64,000 nt of DNA from a virus. A program made the position numbers and the translations under genes. This document shows, piece by piece, positions 540 to 58,016 of the stretch. Each line of letters opens with the position of its first letter. Positions within the stretch are counted from its first letter, which is position 1. The stretch covers positions 1-64,000 of the IMG/VR virus record IMGVR_UViG_3300025141_012985; one strand, written 5' to 3'. The notes below the pieces were generated by a model. The model did no database searches and had not been told where the DNA came from. It worked only from the letters and a program-made list of their open reading frames with translations.

Positions 540-1772
540 ATGGCATCTGGTGTAAGAAACCTAAGAAAAGATCATAGAGAAAAGCCAATAAAAAAGCGTG
601 AAAAGAAAGAAACATCTTCTAAATTTTACGCCGATGAAGATATGATGGAAAATAACCTAGCTTTAGACGATAATAGCAAACAAGAGCATGACACAGGCTC
701 ACCCAAAAGGGAGATTGAAAGAAATATGACAAATACTAATGATGATTTTGACTTTGTAGCAGATTATGATGATGCTGTAGACAGTGGAGCGGAAACACTT
801 CTTCCTGAAAATTCAGCACCTTCATCTCTTTCTGTAGGTTTCATAGGTGTCGGCGGCGGTGGCGGAAAGATGGCAAAGGCATTTATTGATATGGGATTCA
901 CACAGACACTTGTGGTAAATACTACAGATAAAGATCAGCCAACAGGCCTGGATCCAGACCACTTTCTTTTAATTCCGGGTGCAGACGGTGTGGGAAAGAA
1001 TGTTGAGCTAGGTCGACAAATTCTATCTAACAATAGTGCACTTGTTGAAGATCATCTTCGTTCCAGGGTCGGAAGAGTTGACTGGCTATTTGTTCTTGCA
1101 GGCGGCGGCGGGGGAACAGGAAGCTCATGTCATTCACTAGATTCAGCTCTCCAAAGATATCTTAAGTCAGTTTCTGCATCAGGAAATGTTGTCTATGTCG
1201 TGACCTCTCCTACAGCTCAGGAGCTATTGAATCCCACCATTAAGAAGAACTATGAGGCACTGCTCTCGGATGTCTCTGGATCAGTGCATGTAGTCATAGA
1301 CAATGAACGACAGCTTCAGCTCTTAAGGGGTAAGGTCGGAATGCTAGGTCTCTATCCAACAGCTAACAAGAATTTTGCCAAGCTTATTGCACAAGTTCTG
1401 AAGCTATCGTCTGAGTCATCCCCGATTCAGACATTTGACTCCAAAGATCTCGAGGCATGTCTCTCAACAAGCGGAAGGCTTTTTCTCGGAACTACAGTGG
1501 TTAAAGATCCAAGTGATTCAAATCTAGGGTCTATGATTTATCAAAATTGTATGACAAAGTCTCCCTGTCCATCTCCAAGCGGTAAGATAAAGACGGGTGT
1601 TCTTTTGCTTGTTGTAACAGAAGCTATGGCATCTGATCCATCCATTAGTACACAGCTTGAGGCAGCAATTTCATATGTCGGCGGAAGAACCGACGCACTA
1701 TTCTCAGGTGTCTATGTTAGAGAGGGCCTGCCGGGACTTGTTGCTATTTCAGCATTGGGCGGAATTGAGTAA
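540..1772 (+). CDS. tubulin/FtsZ-like GTPase
   Basis: This is a 410-residue protein of the tubulin/FtsZ superfamily. Residues 98-110 hold the N-terminal glycine-rich nucleotide loop (FIGVGGGGGKMAK, compare FtsZ VIGVGGGGGNA). Residues 188-195 are the signature loop GGGGGTGS that contacts the phosphates. VIDNERQLQLL near 252-262 corresponds to the FtsZ VIPNDRLL segment. FDSKD at 299-303 aligns with the T7 loop that supplies the GTP-hydrolysing aspartates to the next subunit; both Asp are kept, while the usual Asn is Thr. The first ~95 residues are a charged, probably disordered extension absent from bacterial FtsZ. Phage relatives known as PhuZ or TubZ form filaments that position phage DNA or the phage nucleus. 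The gene sits between head and neck genes. AGGGG at 529-533 supports the start. Confidence 0.85.
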   Translation: MASGVRNLRKDHREKPIKKREKKETSSKFYADEDMMENNLALDDNSKQEHDTGSPKREIERNMTNTNDDFDFVADYDDAVDSGAETLLPENSAPSSLSVGFIGVGGGGGKMAKAFIDMGFTQTLVVNTTDKDQPTGLDPDHFLLIPGADGVGKNVELGRQILSNNSALVEDHLRSRVGRVDWLFVLAGGGGGTGSSCHSLDSALQRYLKSVSASGNVVYVVTSPTAQELLNPTIKKNYEALLSDVSGSVHVVIDNERQLQLLRGKVGMLGLYPTANKNFAKLIAQVLKLSSESSPIQTFDSKDLEACLSTSGRLFLGTTVVKDPSDSNLGSMIYQNCMTKSPCPSPSGKIKTGVLLLVVTEAMASDPSISTQLEAAISYVGGRTDALFSGVYVREGLPGLVAISALGGIE

Positions 1773-5072: not shown

Positions 5073-8000
5073 ATGGCCGAGCAGACCTTCAGATCGCCAG
5101 GATTCTTTGAAAAAGAGATAGACCTATCGGGGAGAGTCCAGGAAGTTGCAGGAACACCTGCAGGTATCATTGGGACATCAGAATTTGGTCCAGCATTTAT
5201 TCCAGTAACAATTGGATCATTTATAGACTTTAAGGAGAAATTTGGTGATTTAGATTCTACTAAGTTTGGACCCTATGCTGTAAATGAATTTCTTAAGAAT
5301 AGAACTGCTGTAACATTTATGAGAGTCCTTGGTGCAGGTGCAAATACAAGCACAACAGACATTCAAAAAACAATAGCCCACGGAACTGTTACAAATGCAG
5401 GATTTAGGGTAATTGGATCTGTATCAACTCAACCCCAGGGTCCCAATGTTGGACATCAGGGTTCTGTTCAATTCTTAACAGCAAAGCATACAATTCAGAC
5501 GAATGAAACTCAAGGCTATCCAGTATTTACTGACAATGATAGCTTTGCCATTGAGACAGGCGGTGATGTTCATCTCGTCAGAGGAATGATCTTTACTTCA
5601 ACAGGAAGTAGGGTACAGGTTCTATCTTATTGGGAGAACTATCCCGTCACAGCATCTGCCAAGGATGTTGCAGGAATGGGATATGATGTCAATAACTCAC
5701 TAGTATACAAAAAGTTTAAGGTAGTAATTTCAAGTTCTGCAGGATCATCATTTGCAAATGATGAAAATAAGGCAGGAATTAGAATTTTAACTGCATCTCT
5801 TAATCCAACAAATGATGATTATATTTCTAAGATTCTAAACACAGATCCTGAGAGATTTCAAGAAGAGCAGCATCTTCTCTATGCCGATTTTTCTGTCGAG
5901 GATGAGGTTGCAACTGCAACAAACTGGGTTGGAATAGTTTCAGGATCAGCTTCAACCTCTGATGGATCGGGAGATACATCTCTGACATACAGAGACATGT
6001 ATGGAAGATTTGATACTAGATATAGCTCATCTAGAACAACATACTTTACATCTCAAAAGTACGGAGAAAACTCTTATAACCTCTTTTACTTTGAAACACT
6101 TGACGATGGTGCAAACACTGCTGATAAGTATAAGGTATCAATTGCAGACCTTAGAAAATCAACAGATCCAAAGTCTGAGTACGGATCTTTTACAGTTCAA
6201 ATTAGAAGGTTTGGTGACTCTGATGTTTCACCTCAAATAGTAGAACAATATCCGCTATGTACACTTGATCCAACAGATGAAAACTTTGTTGCTAGAAAGG
6301 TTGGAGACCTAAGTGTTAAGTACAATTTTGATGCTCTAAGCGAAGATGAAAGAAGGTACATAGTCAAGGGAGACTATCCAAATGTTTCAAGGGCAGTTAG
6401 AATAGTCTTAAGCGATGATATTAAGAATGGAAATGTTCCTGCAAGTGCAATGCCGTTTGGATTTAGGGGACTACCTGTTCTGAAGACAAATAACTGGCTT
6501 GCAGACAGTCTAACAGATGCTGCATTAAGACGACCCATTAAGGATGTCCTAAATGGTGGCTCAAGCGGTGTTAGACTGGCATTCTGTTCAGGAAGTGGAC
6601 CCGGGGTTAAGCATAATGAGCCGACAGCACTTACTGGGTCTATAGTCCCACCTGTCCCACTAAGGTTTAAGGTTACACAGGGAACAACTGCTAAGTCTGG
6701 ATATCCAGGAAAGCCCGGCACAAACGAGAGAGTTAGCACTAAATTTTACTGGGGAATAAGAACGAGCAGAATTCCAAGAACAGGATCAATGGGAGACGCC
6801 ATTCTCAATGCAAATGCTTCAGGTGAAATAAATGAGCTCGTAAGATCGTACACTAGATTTTTAGGAATAAAAAAGCTTGACGCACTTGTAACAGGTTCGG
6901 GAGCTGATATTTTTTGCAATAATGAATTTTCGCTTAACAAGGTTGCGCTAAGCACAACGTTGAATAAGGCGGGATCTGTTAGAAATGTCTATGATACAAT
7001 TCATGCAGACCTTACAGGAACAGCCGGGGAGCACATGCTGGAATCAGCATATATTAGAAATGGTCGACCAGAGCCTGGACTAAGCTATGCCATTAATCAG
7101 CGAGGAGCTACTGTTGATAATAGACTGACTCTTGGCACACTGCTCAACCTAACGTCATCTACGTACTTCAATAGATTTACTCAGTATGCTAAATTTACGA
7201 ACATAATGTACGGAGGGTACGACGGAACAAACATTCTAGATCCAGATATGGGAAGGATGAATGACAGAGCAAGCTCTTCAGATACAAGAGGAAAGGCAAG
7301 TAGGCAATATCCTGCTGCAAATACAGATCTTGATATAGGGCTTGCTGCAACATCTTATGTCGGAGCAGGCAAGCACAATAACACTGTAGCATCCTATAGA
7401 TCTGCAATTGATATTATGACAGATCCGATGGTTACAAGAATTAATATTCTTGCAGTTCCAGGAATAAGAGACAGCTTTGTAACAGATAGAGCAGCTGATA
7501 GAACTAGAGAATATAGTCAGGCTATCTACCTAATGGATATTCCAAGCTATACAGATGGTGATGTTAGAATTTTTGACAGTGATGATCTTAGACCAAATGT
7601 TGGAAAGACAAGAGCTAAGATGGACTCTAGGGCTATAGATAACAACTATTCGGCAACCTACTTCCCAGATATAAGCATGGTAGATGATAGAAACGGAAAT
7701 CCCGTAAAAGTCCCAGCATCAATTGCTGCACTATCTGCTCTTGGATTTAATGATTCTGTTGCCTATCCGTGGTTTGCACCTGCCGGATTTAACAGAGCAG
7801 CTCTTTCAAACGTTGTCAATGTTGCTACACGGCTTAATAGTGAAGATAGGGATAACCTTTATGACTCTAGGATTAATCCAATAGCATCATTTCCCCAGGC
7901 GGGATTTGTTATATTTGGACAGAAGACGCTTCAGCAGGCAAGATCTGCTCTAGATAGAGTGAATGTTAGAAGAATGCTTCTTGAGGTTAAGCGGCTTGTA

Positions 8001-8267
8001 TCAGACGTTGCAAAGAAACTTGTATTTGAGCAAAATACTCCTGGAACTAGAGCTAAGTTTATATCACAGGTTGCCCCGCTATTAGCAACAATACAGAGCC
8101 AGCAAGGAATAGATCAGTTTAGGGTCATTATGGATGATTCAAATAACACTACAGAGGATATTGAGTCTAATAGGCTAAACGGAAGAATAGTGCTGGTTCC
8201 AACTAGAGCGGTTGAGTTTATTGCTATTGATTTCATTATTACTAATTCAGGTGTAAGTTTTGAGTGA
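5073..8267 (+). CDS. tail sheath protein, first copy (gp18-like)
   Basis: This 1064-residue contractile tail sheath subunit is much longer than T4 gp18 (659). The N-terminus (PGFFEKEIDLSGRVQEVAG, GIIGTSEFGPAFIPVTIG, TFMRVLGAG) is the typical sheath start. The C-terminal domain has NVRRMLLEVKRLVSD, KFISQVAPLL, then RIVLVPTRAVEFIAIDF, the part that builds the sheath core and contracts. The extra length lies in the middle (~150-550), probably protruding outer domains. AGGAG at 5060-5064 gives a clear start. The next gene is a diverged paralogue sharing both ends, so the sheath is duplicated. A TGATTTATA element at 5052-5060 may be a late promoter. Confidence 0.93.
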   Translation: MAEQTFRSPGFFEKEIDLSGRVQEVAGTPAGIIGTSEFGPAFIPVTIGSFIDFKEKFGDLDSTKFGPYAVNEFLKNRTAVTFMRVLGAGANTSTTDIQKTIAHGTVTNAGFRVIGSVSTQPQGPNVGHQGSVQFLTAKHTIQTNETQGYPVFTDNDSFAIETGGDVHLVRGMIFTSTGSRVQVLSYWENYPVTASAKDVAGMGYDVNNSLVYKKFKVVISSSAGSSFANDENKAGIRILTASLNPTNDDYISKILNTDPERFQEEQHLLYADFSVEDEVATATNWVGIVSGSASTSDGSGDTSLTYRDMYGRFDTRYSSSRTTYFTSQKYGENSYNLFYFETLDDGANTADKYKVSIADLRKSTDPKSEYGSFTVQIRRFGDSDVSPQIVEQYPLCTLDPTDENFVARKVGDLSVKYNFDALSEDERRYIVKGDYPNVSRAVRIVLSDDIKNGNVPASAMPFGFRGLPVLKTNNWLADSLTDAALRRPIKDVLNGGSSGVRLAFCSGSGPGVKHNEPTALTGSIVPPVPLRFKVTQGTTAKSGYPGKPGTNERVSTKFYWGIRTSRIPRTGSMGDAILNANASGEINELVRSYTRFLGIKKLDALVTGSGADIFCNNEFSLNKVALSTTLNKAGSVRNVYDTIHADLTGTAGEHMLESAYIRNGRPEPGLSYAINQRGATVDNRLTLGTLLNLTSSTYFNRFTQYAKFTNIMYGGYDGTNILDPDMGRMNDRASSSDTRGKASRQYPAANTDLDIGLAATSYVGAGKHNNTVASYRSAIDIMTDPMVTRINILAVPGIRDSFVTDRAADRTREYSQAIYLMDIPSYTDGDVRIFDSDDLRPNVGKTRAKMDSRAIDNNYSATYFPDISMVDDRNGNPVKVPASIAALSALGFNDSVAYPWFAPAGFNRAALSNVVNVATRLNSEDRDNLYDSRINPIASFPQAGFVIFGQKTLQQARSALDRVNVRRMLLEVKRLVSDVAKKLVFEQNTPGTRAKFISQVAPLLATIQSQQGIDQFRVIMDDSNNTTEDIESNRLNGRIVLVPTRAVEFIAIDFIITNSGVSFE

Positions 8268-54410: not shown

Positions 54411-54431
54411 TATCATAGGAGGTAGTTGATA

Positions 54432-57400
54432 GTGTTTAATAAGTTTTCTGTGCCCAAGAGATTCGTAGGTCTTCATGCACATGATGGTAGTTCTGTATAC
54501 GATGGTCTTGGATATCCCAATGAACATATCGATTTTGTTCTTGAAAACGGGATGGATGCTTTTGCATTAACAAATCACGGACATATGAATTCTTCTGCTC
54601 ATGCTCACAATTATGCTAAGAAGCTAAAGAATAAGGGCATGGGATATAGGCATATCTACGGATGTGAATGCTATTTCGTAGATGACCTAGATGAATGGAG
54701 AAGCGACTATAATGAGTATCGAGAAAAAGTTAGACAGGAAAAGGTGCTTCAAAAGAAATCAAAGAGTGAGATATCTGAGGGTGATGAGAGTGAAGGTCTA
54801 GTCATTGAGAATGAAGATGAATCAAAGGCAGATCGTGGAACGTACCCATCGTGGAAGAAGCGGTACCATCTTGTAGTTCTTGCTAAGAACTATAAAGGGC
54901 TGCAGAATCTCTTTAGATTGGTCAAGAGATCATACAAGGAAGGGTTCTATAGGTTTCCTCGTATTGATTACAAGATGCTCAAAGAGCACTCTGAGGGACT
55001 TATAGTCTCAACAGCTTGTGTTGGGGGTCGGCCGTCTGGCCATATATTCCAACACTTTGAAGGAAAGAGCTTTAATGAACTAACTCCTGATCTCGTAGAT
55101 GACCCAGTCGTTCTCAATCAAATTATGAGAAAGCTTGAGAATATGACAGATAGATTTGTTGATGCTGTAGGCGAGGAAAATTTCTTTCTTGAAATTCAAT
55201 TCAATGACCTTGTTGCTCAAAATCTTGCCAATAGGTGCATCATTAATCTTTCTGAAAAGACAGGGATCCCACTTCTTGCAACAGCTGATTCCCACTACTG
55301 TAACCCAGATATGTGGGAAGCAAGAGAGATGTATAGGCTGCTTGGAAGAATGGGGTCTCGTGGAGATGAAATGCCCAAGATTCCTAAAAAGGAAGATTTA
55401 AAGTGTGAGCTCTATCCTAAAAATGCACAGCAGATGTGGGATGAATTTGGAAAGAGTTACGATAAATATGACTTCTACAAGGGTAGCGAAGAAGCTGTTC
55501 GCGGAGCAATTGAGAAATCTTACGGAATTGCATGGGATATGTGTGAAGAAGTCTGGTTTGACGGATCAGCAAAACTTCCAAACTTTGGAACGCCTGAGAA
55601 ATCTGCGTTTGCCCAGCTAGTTGAACAGGTAAAAGAGGGAATGGTTAAAGATGGTCTTCATGAAAAACCTGAGTACGTCGAACGAGTAAGGGAGGAAATG
55701 TCTGTCATCAAGAAGCTAGGGTTTGAGAATTACTTTTTAACACTAACTAAGGTATTTGAAAAGTCACAACATAGAACTCTACTCGGGCCAGGTCGAGGAT
55801 CCGGAGGCGGAAGCCTGGTCAATTATGTCCTTGGGATTACACATATTGATCCAATTCAGTATGGCCTTCTATTTGAGAGGTTTCTAGGTATTCACAAAGC
55901 ATCATGGCCTGATATTGACTCTGATGTAGGTGATAGAGATGTTCTTATTGACGTTTCTCGTGAGCTTTTTGGTGAAGACTCTGTCATACCTGTTTCTAAT
56001 TTTAATACTTTGAAGTTAAAATCCCTTATCAAGGATGTCTCTAAGTTCTATGGAATTCCGTTTGATAAGATAAATGCTCTAACTGGACCACTTGAGAGAG
56101 AGGTTATGCCACGAGCCATGGGTGATCATGAAGAAAGGTCTACGTATGTCTTAACACACGAAGACTGTATGAAGTATAGTGATCCCTATAAAGAGTTCAT
56201 GGATGAATATCCAAAGATTGCAGAGCATATTAAGTCCTTATTTATGGAGCCAAGGTCGATCGGTCGACATGCAGGAGGTGTTCTAGTATGTCCAGATCTT
56301 GAGAGCAGCATGCCAGTCATTAAGGTCAGGGGCGAACTTCAAACACCCTGGTCTGAGGGAATGAACTGGAGGCATCTTGAAGAGAATGGATTTCTCAAGT
56401 TTGACTTTCTAGGACTTGCAACGCTTAAGATGGTAGAAGATTCCATCAGACTTATCCTAAGAAATCAGGGAGTAGAAAATCCTACATTTGATGATATCAA
56501 TAAATTCTTTGATGAAAATATAAACAGTAGATTTCATAAGATGGATGATCAAAAAGTCTGGGAATATGTTTACCATGATGGAAGGTTTGTCCAGGTTTTT
56601 CAATTCACAAATACAGGCGCTAGAAACTTCTGTGTTGCAGCAAAGCCCAGGTCAATTGAAGATCTTGCTACAATCACTGCAATCTATCGTCCAGGGCCCC
56701 TTGCTGCAAACGTTCACAGGAAGTATGTAAGAGCAGGCAAGGATATTGAAAATATCACATATGACCACCCTGTCCTTGAAGAACTTTTAAGTGAAAGTCG
56801 AGGATTTGTCGTCTTCCAGGAGCAGTTTATGCTTATTGCTCAAAATCTTTGCGGATTCGACAAGGGAGCATCAGATAAGATGAGAAAGACTCTTGTCAAG
56901 AAGTCTCTCGATATGAATGAAAAGAAGGCAAAAGAAAGGGCTGACCTAAGAAAGAAATTCATTACAGGCGCTGTTGATCTATCTGGAATGGAAGAGGATA
57001 AAGCGACTAAGCTTTATGAAACAATCGAGGCATTCTCTGCTTACGGATTCAATAAATCACATGCTGTTGCATACGCCGTTGATTCGTACTATTCCGCATG
57101 GCTTCACACATACTATGAGAAGGAGTGGCTTGCCACATGTCTTCAGACATGGAATGGATCTCCAAAGTTTGCAAAGATCATAGCTGAGATTAAGTCGCTA
57201 GGGTATAAGATTCTTCAACCAGACATTAACGCCTCTTCAGACGTATGGGTATATAGTGATGAAAGAGAGGGATTTGTTCCACCGCTTACTGCAATTAAGG
57301 GTGTTGGTGACTCTGCTGTTGCTGAGATTATGCAAAATAGACCCTATGATTCTCTTGATGATATTCTGTTTACAGAGGATGGAAAGTGGAAGTCTTCCAA

Positions 57401-58016
57401 GCTGAACAAGACAGCATTTGACTCTCTTTGCAAGGTCGAGGCTTTTGGCAGTGTGTCAGAAATGTCTAGCGGAGAGATTCAAAATCATAGACAGCTTCAT
57501 GATATTATTGTTGGAAACTATGATCAGCTGAAGAAAGGCAGATACGGGATGACAAAAACAGCGCATAAGAAACTGCTTAAGACACAAGGCTCTGTTGAAG
57601 AGTTTGTTCCTAAGTTGATCATTGATAACTACGGATCTTCAGACTGGTCTAGAACGCTTAAGATAGGGTTTAGTGTTGAGCTAATGTCAGGTGCAGATGA
57701 GTCTCTTGTCTTTCCTCCTAAAATAATGGAAAAGATTAAGAAGTCTGAACTTAAGCCGATTACTGCACTCTCTGGAAAGACAAAGGATGTAGTCTGGTTC
57801 TGCATTCAGGAAATTATTGAGAAGAAGACCAAAAATGGAAAGATATTCTACAGAATGAGAGTCTGTGATAATAATTCTGAAAGCTGCTGGCTCAGAGTGT
57901 GGACAAAGTTTAAAGAGGTTCCAGACCCATATACGATATGGATTGCAGAAGTTGCATCAACTGAGTCATGGGGGTGTAGTACATCTTCCTATAAGATGTG
58001 GAAGATTAATGTGTGA
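54432..58016 (+). CDS. dnaE: DNA polymerase III alpha subunit (DnaE-type, family C)
   Basis: GTG 54432 lies nine bases after AGGAGG (54417-54422) and is preferred to TTG 54426, giving 1194 residues, close to bacterial DnaE (1160). The N-terminal PHP domain has FVGLHAHDGSSVYDG and ALTNHGHM. The palm has LLGPGRGSGGGSLVNYVLGI, LLFERFL and the catalytic PDIDSD. The fingers and helix-hairpin-helix part (TAIYRPGPL, KSHAVAYAVDSYYSAWL, LTAIKGVGDSAV) and an OB-fold end (KIFYRMRVCDNNSESCWLRV) follow. An acidic insertion lies at ~95-135. The enzyme is the likely main replicase, which is unusual since T4-like phages use a family B polymerase. It follows DnaJ. Confidence 0.93.
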   Translation: MFNKFSVPKRFVGLHAHDGSSVYDGLGYPNEHIDFVLENGMDAFALTNHGHMNSSAHAHNYAKKLKNKGMGYRHIYGCECYFVDDLDEWRSDYNEYREKVRQEKVLQKKSKSEISEGDESEGLVIENEDESKADRGTYPSWKKRYHLVVLAKNYKGLQNLFRLVKRSYKEGFYRFPRIDYKMLKEHSEGLIVSTACVGGRPSGHIFQHFEGKSFNELTPDLVDDPVVLNQIMRKLENMTDRFVDAVGEENFFLEIQFNDLVAQNLANRCIINLSEKTGIPLLATADSHYCNPDMWEAREMYRLLGRMGSRGDEMPKIPKKEDLKCELYPKNAQQMWDEFGKSYDKYDFYKGSEEAVRGAIEKSYGIAWDMCEEVWFDGSAKLPNFGTPEKSAFAQLVEQVKEGMVKDGLHEKPEYVERVREEMSVIKKLGFENYFLTLTKVFEKSQHRTLLGPGRGSGGGSLVNYVLGITHIDPIQYGLLFERFLGIHKASWPDIDSDVGDRDVLIDVSRELFGEDSVIPVSNFNTLKLKSLIKDVSKFYGIPFDKINALTGPLEREVMPRAMGDHEERSTYVLTHEDCMKYSDPYKEFMDEYPKIAEHIKSLFMEPRSIGRHAGGVLVCPDLESSMPVIKVRGELQTPWSEGMNWRHLEENGFLKFDFLGLATLKMVEDSIRLILRNQGVENPTFDDINKFFDENINSRFHKMDDQKVWEYVYHDGRFVQVFQFTNTGARNFCVAAKPRSIEDLATITAIYRPGPLAANVHRKYVRAGKDIENITYDHPVLEELLSESRGFVVFQEQFMLIAQNLCGFDKGASDKMRKTLVKKSLDMNEKKAKERADLRKKFITGAVDLSGMEEDKATKLYETIEAFSAYGFNKSHAVAYAVDSYYSAWLHTYYEKEWLATCLQTWNGSPKFAKIIAEIKSLGYKILQPDINASSDVWVYSDEREGFVPPLTAIKGVGDSAVAEIMQNRPYDSLDDILFTEDGKWKSSKLNKTAFDSLCKVEAFGSVSEMSSGEIQNHRQLHDIIVGNYDQLKKGRYGMTKTAHKKLLKTQGSVEEFVPKLIIDNYGSSDWSRTLKIGFSVELMSGADESLVFPPKIMEKIKKSELKPITALSGKTKDVVWFCIQEIIEKKTKNGKIFYRMRVCDNNSESCWLRVWTKFKEVPDPYTIWIAEVASTESWGCSTSSYKMWKINV

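Follow-up and report, generated by a model that had tools for sequence, protein, structure and literature searches.

A tubulin/FtsZ-superfamily GTPase family encoded by uncultured marine T4-like phages

The gene found at positions 540-1772 of the window (the whole stretch of 64,000 nucleotides analysed here, taken from the start of an IMG/VR virus record of 84 kb) codes for a GTPase of the tubulin/FtsZ superfamily that is neither FtsZ nor PhuZ. It belongs to a large family carried by more than 350 virus contigs and absent from ~50,000 sequenced named phages, a weak match to gp138 of Bacillus phage G apart. The reading that we favour, to which we give an even chance, is a cytomotive filament of the late lytic phase: a GTP-hydrolysing head-to-tail polymer whose N-terminal tail would bind a partner and which would position or move capsids or replicated DNA.

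Identification and predicted structure of the gene product

An open reading frame check confirmed an ATG-initiated ORF whose product of 410 aa begins with MASG.

540-1772, + strand: tubulin/FtsZ-superfamily GTPase gene, long form, 410 aa (ORF; Pfam, NCBIfam and PDB matches; AlphaFold2 core pLDDT 92.9)

The sequence-only reading had assigned the protein to the tubulin superfamily from its GTP loops T1 and T4 and its T7 Asp pair. These are present, and the assignment is borne out by matches to NCBIfam ftsZ (E 3e-9), to solved FtsZ chains among PDB sequences (E 3e-7) and to Pfam Tubulin (PF00091; E 1.4e-6, 29 bits, narrowly missing the gathering score of 33 bits), as well as by the predicted fold. 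The TIGR00065 equivalog test gave ~36 bits (36.5) against a cut-off of 295.2, a result that excludes FtsZ itself.

The core (residues 63-410) was modelled by AlphaFold2 with pLDDT 92.9 and pTM 0.89 when 84 relatives were present in the alignment; with 10 close sequences only, pLDDT was 53. Comparison of the core model by Foldseek and VIA-align matched CetZ, TubZ and FtsZ at Z values of 27-32 over ~270-309 residues, covering the whole two-domain fold. The best values are 32.3 for CetZ2 (4b45), 32.2 for TubZ and 29.5 for FtsZ, with ~290-309 residues superposed. The comparison with PhuZ, TubZ, CetZ and FtsZ that had been proposed as a check yields a tubulin-like fold, with PhuZ far weaker than the other three: in the viral structure library PhuZ of phage Noxifer reaches a TM of only ~0.5, and the best viral match is A0A6J5RW92 (TMq 0.80). 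The last strand of the fold occupies residues 338-347 of the 348 in the model and the chain stops there; no FtsZ-type C-terminal linker and conserved peptide were found in the core model.

Conservation of the GTP-binding loops and of the catalytic residues

Six loops were delimited in the gene:

846-869, + strand: T1 loop GVGGGGGK, residues 103-110 (alignment of 84 relatives)
978-1001, + strand: T3 loop GADGVGKN, residues 147-154, with Lys153 invariant (alignments)
1098-1124, + strand: T4 loop, tubulin signature AGGGGGTGS, residues 187-195 (alignment of 84 relatives)
1206-1223, + strand: T5 loop SPTAQE, residues 223-228 (alignments)
1299-1313, + strand: T6 base contact DNERQ, residues 254-258 (alignments)
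1431-1454, + strand: T7 synergy loop TFDSKDLE, residues 298-305, with predicted catalytic D300 and D303 (alignments)

Nearly all residues of these loops are identical or nearly so among 84 non-redundant relatives, and K110, T193, G194, N255, E256, D300 and D303 are found in 84/84. D300 and D303 align with D207 and D210 of FtsZ. The Gly-rich GTP loops T1 and T4, whose presence defines the superfamily, are essentially invariant, and the invariant K110 (T1) and K153 (T3) correspond to Asn and Ala, respectively, in E. coli FtsZ. Loss of key GTP-contact residues had been named beforehand as an observation that would speak against a tubulin; the GTP-contact and hydrolysis residues are intact throughout the alignment of 84. 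A degenerate, non-functional relic carried by chance might be suspected from the score lying narrowly below the Pfam gathering threshold. It is refuted by conservation, namely the invariant catalytic residues, a core dN/dS of ~0.01-0.04 (close relatives; ratio from dN and dS) and the ~357 loci, and deserves practically no credence.

Across the superfamily, T7 acts on the nucleotide of the neighbouring subunit. This longitudinal interface has the nucleotide pocket on one side and T7 on the other, and the residues of both sides show no variation across 84 sequences whose identity is otherwise ~54-77%. Because T7 serves the nucleotide of the next subunit and both faces are strictly conserved, this pattern argues for head-to-tail polymers that would hydrolyse GTP at the T7 contact.

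Family size and distribution

Relatives are encoded at 324 IMG/VR loci when searched with the family profile and at ~357 with a broader profile. The family carriers are marine T4-like contigs of up to 293 kb, pairwise identity in the non-redundant family set is ~54-77%, and each of 18 longer records (46-293 kb) has a single copy of the gene. A search of 50,697 phage records gave gp138 of Bacillus phage G as sole match (E 0.04). PF00091 was not matched in Microcystis phage Mel-JY01 or Flavobacterium phage immuto, which are the closest cultured relatives when judged by tail sheath. In GTDB genomes a relative is carried by four contigs assigned to MAG bins, one bin holding two; ordinary FtsZ genes are found elsewhere in the same bins. 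The hosts that these bins would indicate (three Flavobacteriales, one Halobacteriovorax) were set aside, and we claim no host, because binning error is likely.

Phage tubulins are given in reviews as TubZ and PhuZ (PMC7950403, PMC10299810, PMC13282480), the former serving plasmid-like partition of a prophage and the latter found in nucleus-forming jumbo phages (PMC7950403). For marine jumbo phages, one study speaks of tubulin in phiKZ-like members only (PMC9123017), and PhuZ homologues were reported in the huge-phage paper (PMC7162821). No description of the present family was found in the literature searched, a search that lay outside subscription papers and preprints.

Other features of the tubulin-carrying phages were recorded. 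The window has two tandem, very long tail sheath genes (5073-8267, 1064 aa, and 8306-11368, 1020 aa), and the same pair is found in relatives. Positions 54426-58016 encode a DNA polymerase III alpha of bacterial type (C family) in this T4-like phage, whose genome also codes DnaJ, Thy1, RNR, ClpP, RecA and DnaB. At 33 loci other than the window, in several gene contexts, a one-piece phage tmRNA with tags such as ANDNVEFDYALAA lies within ~1.5 kb upstream of the tubulin gene on the same strand (L029, L040, L052, L058, L067, L079, L082, L085, L087, L034-L038 and others). A tmRNA above the Rfam cut-off was detected in 12 of 16 longer tubulin-carrying records versus none of 10 shorter tubulin-less relatives.

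N-terminal extension and translation starts

The charged extension of ~95 residues noticed in the sequence-only reading is real: residues 1-97 have 39% D/E/K/R versus 17% in the core. It is made of two parts, a variable basic/acidic stretch (residues 1-62) and a conserved acidic one (residues 63-97) with 9 acidic and no basic residues.

540-725, + strand: variable charged extension, residues 1-62, in part of the family only (dN/dS ~0.2-0.6)
741-827, + strand: conserved acidic-aromatic tail DDFDFVxxYDD...LLPENxAxS, residues 68-96 (alignments)
529-534, + strand: Shine-Dalgarno-like AGGGGT ahead of the long start, -6.7 kcal/mol
709-713, + strand: Shine-Dalgarno-like GGGAG ahead of the internal start, duplex -7.7 kcal/mol, with long spacing
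726-1772, + strand: probable short form from an internal ATG, 348 aa, MTNTNDDFDF... (start comparison; residues 63-410 fold)

L88 and N91 of the tail are present in 84/84 sequences. A DFDF-type acidic aromatic motif occurs twice in the tail of six members (L131, L133, L141, L158, L160 and L165). Cleavage by a T4-type prohead protease at the conserved LLPEN was considered and rejected, the P1 Glu not being kept (LPD, LDD, LAPN in relatives).

Residues 1-62 are found only in some members, often beginning MAS or MPS. Their dN/dS of ~0.2-0.6 among close relatives, compared to ~0.01-0.04 in the core (ratios from dN and dS), indicates a stretch that is translated and loosely constrained. Nearly all relatives have a start at the place matching the internal ATG, accompanied by a sequence of ribosome-binding type. 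Members without residues 1-62 begin near this place with a Shine-Dalgarno-like sequence, and those with them usually keep both starts, which makes a long and a short form likely. Two in-frame starts thus probably give both forms in many members, including the 410-aa protein of the window.

Expression signals

Two signals were identified upstream of the gene:

456-485, + strand: intrinsic-terminator-like hairpin with a T-rich tail, between the upstream gene and the tubulin gene (read from sequence)
517-524, + strand: late-promoter-type element ATATTTAA, pattern ATA[CT]TTA[TAG], 23 nt upstream of the long start (motif searches)

The core stem of the hairpin spans 463-478, and similar hairpins lie upstream of the gene in relatives; a terminator-like structure at this place suggests that the tubulin gene is a separate transcription unit. 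The late-type upstream element described earlier exists, with one correction: its sequence is ATATTTAA at position 517 and not the T4 late promoter TATAAATA, which was tried as the upstream element and has zero occurrences on the + strand of the window. In the window, candidate elements of the ATA[CT]TTA[TAG] pattern lie no more than 40 nt from the start of the following gene at 517, 1875, 8271, 11386, 13103, 24773, 26052 and 42098, and many of these genes are structural. Across 14 relatives that had no part in deriving the motif, 60 sites were counted, of which 29 precede late (structural) genes, versus 1.85 expected. Of 82 family members, 23 have the related pattern [ACG]TATTTA[TC] ahead of the tubulin start (1.8 expected), at a median of 36 nt and in several gene contexts. 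The probabilities attached to these enrichments are overstated as the sequences are related, but the signal is consistent. The proposal of late expression gains support from the element 23 nt upstream, shared with structural genes, and synthesis would take place late in the lytic cycle.

This timing, together with the tail, bears on a reading in which the protein is a decoy that joins or poisons the Z-ring, blocks division and lets the cell enlarge before lysis. Such a decoy would exploit the FtsZ superfamily fold and the conserved T7/T1 interface, and its acidic-aromatic tail might act as a mimic of the C-terminal peptide with which FtsZ binds FtsA/ZipA. However, the phage protein is only ~20-22% identical to FtsZ from E. 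coli and from the contig-carrying MAGs, which makes co-polymerisation unlikely; a decoy has no need of an intact hydrolysis site; and takeover genes are usually early, at variance with the late-type element. We consider interference with host division unlikely.

Genomic context

The gene was described from sequence as lying among head and neck genes, and this location holds. In the window it is followed by a neck gene (phrog_211, 4.8e-9) and then by the two tail sheath genes; in the close relative L008 it is downstream of the major capsid gene (phrog_138, 2.6e-71). The order in the window lineage is scaffold-like gene, major capsid, small head protein, tubulin, neck and two sheath genes. A sulfotransferase-like gene (phrog_3347, 1.3e-5; L008:6406-7296) lies between the major capsid and tubulin genes in close relatives of the window. 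Other lineages have the tubulin gene flanked by TerL/portal on one side and the prohead protease on the other, next to PhoH or SbcC, or alone amid genes of the opposite strand. At least seven neighbourhoods (PhoH, SbcC, tmRNA, TerL/portal/protease and others) occur in relatives; over the family tree, 23 context changes are counted with eight context labels, and no gene was seen to accompany it in every context. Twelve related records with the same neck gene lack the tubulin gene, which suggests that it is dispensable in some relatives, with the reservation that these records are fragments. In several relatives of this kind, the tubulin gene is missing at the head-neck location and from the rest of the record too; a 115-kb record is one of the tubulin-less relatives.

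The structural-gene location had been taken to suggest, among other roles, a virion-associated one. As a virion or head-assembly component, the protein would be carried inside or on the prohead or would aid portal/neck assembly. The capsid-neck location on separate branches of the family tree, the portal-prohead protease location in another part and the late-type element would fit such a component. As the neighbourhood varies, position is weak evidence for it and does not support the argument. Against such a component, most family contexts are non-structural (PhoH, SbcC, tmRNA), same-neck relatives without the gene exist, and the LPE site that would suit a T4-type prohead protease is not kept. 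A virion or head-assembly component appears distinctly improbable.

Proposed role

In the filament reading, the phage tubulin would form an intracellular polymer that moves or positions phage cargo. Capsid treadmilling and DNA centring are performed by PhuZ filaments (PMC13282480), and by analogy capsids or DNA would be natural candidates for the cargo. The partner-binding tail would be N-terminal (acidic DFDFV...LPEN, often after a variable charged linker), in contrast to the C-terminal tails of FtsZ, TubZ and PhuZ, and may be presented in long and short forms in many members. No match to the chimallin gene was obtained in 15 long records, with phiKZ as positive control, a search that misses divergent shells and covers records that may be fragments. 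The filament reading therefore needs no phage nucleus, and the cargo that explains PhuZ is absent from these 15 records or unrecognised in them.

A wider reading, which we put forward tentatively and with less confidence than the filament itself, is that the family represents a third phage tubulin lineage, distinct from TubZ and PhuZ and common among uncultured marine phages (T4-like and jumbo) in which no nucleus is recognisable. Its late dynamic filaments would use the N-terminal tail as an adaptor to carry capsids or DNA, with isoforms from dual starts. The family combines presence on ~357 viral contigs from T4-like phages with all catalytic residues, a tail at the N terminus and no recognised nucleus. 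A marine family of more than 350 contigs that is absent from named phages implies that a self-made cytoskeleton, assembled late in infection, may be a feature of many ocean phages. If the third-lineage reading is true, cytoskeletons of phages would be commonplace in the ocean, with no obligatory link to a phage nucleus. Should the family protein polymerise, transport by phage-made filaments inside cells would be far commoner than thought, and whether phage cytoskeletons need a phage nucleus would become testable.

Comparison with known tubulins

The closest protein in profile comparisons is the TubZ-like WP_014417886 of the Bacillus velezensis plasmid plaBV1 (29% identity over 291 columns, E 5e-16), followed by phage G gp138 (1.7e-11) and E. 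coli FtsZ (2.8e-9). WP_014417886 is annotated as FtsZ; we infer that it is a TubZ. It has in common with the phage protein T3 GVGK, T7 [FL]DxKDL and the DN[EQ] base contact. In PDB sequences, FtsZ chains outscore TubZ chains (4ei7, E 9e-5), and the protein was consequently not filed as TubZ. In the phylogeny that had been called for, the phage family forms one group, while the deep joins to FtsZ, TubZ and PhuZ are affected by long branches and are not trusted. The Z value of CetZ2 is tied with that of TubZ, and the superfamily tree contained no CetZ sequences.

Resemblance to TubZ raises DNA partition as an alternative role, in which a TubZRC-type system would segregate phage genomes in pseudolysogeny or a plasmid-like state. 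It draws on the plasmid protein ranking ahead of E. coli FtsZ, on the shared T3 and T7 motifs and on the structural proximity to solved TubZ (4ei7, 2xka; Z ~32). TubZ systems differ by having TubR and centromere repeats: around the phage gene (430-2100) no centromere-like iterons were found, the adjoining genes are head and neck genes with no TubR recognised, and no constant small neighbour gene is kept across contexts. TubZ also has a C-terminal tail, replaced here by the N-terminal acidic one, and the late-type element and lytic T4-like gene set do not suit partition, which we judge quite unlikely.

PhuZ of phiKZ and other nucleus-forming jumbo phages is likewise a phage-encoded GTPase of the tubulin superfamily but proved a poor comparison. 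The best PHROGs match of the 410-aa protein is a weak PhuZ similarity over a short stretch (phrog_4733, E 0.08), and phiKZ PhuZ showed no kinship to the family profile (hhalign prob 0.2, E 0.27). The C-terminal domain PF22334 of phiKZ PhuZ is not listed for the 410-aa protein at E up to 10. With no profile match, without this domain and with no nuclear-shell (chimallin) gene detected in the 15 long records, the protein is not PhuZ.

The FtsZ-like gp138 of Bacillus phage G resembles the phage protein in T7 (FDxxDL); it differs by its ~24% identity, its phage type and its beginning at the first strand of the fold, with no N-terminal tail. A0A6J5RW92 ("FtsZ Cell division GTPase" of an uncultured Caudovirales phage) is only 21% identical. 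CetZ (Haloferax volcanii CetZ2, 4b45) and bacterial FtsZ have the same fold, and T1, T4 and T7 of FtsZ are conserved in the phage protein. Their identity to it is ~20-24%, and FtsZ has a C-terminal linker and peptide where the phage chain ends.
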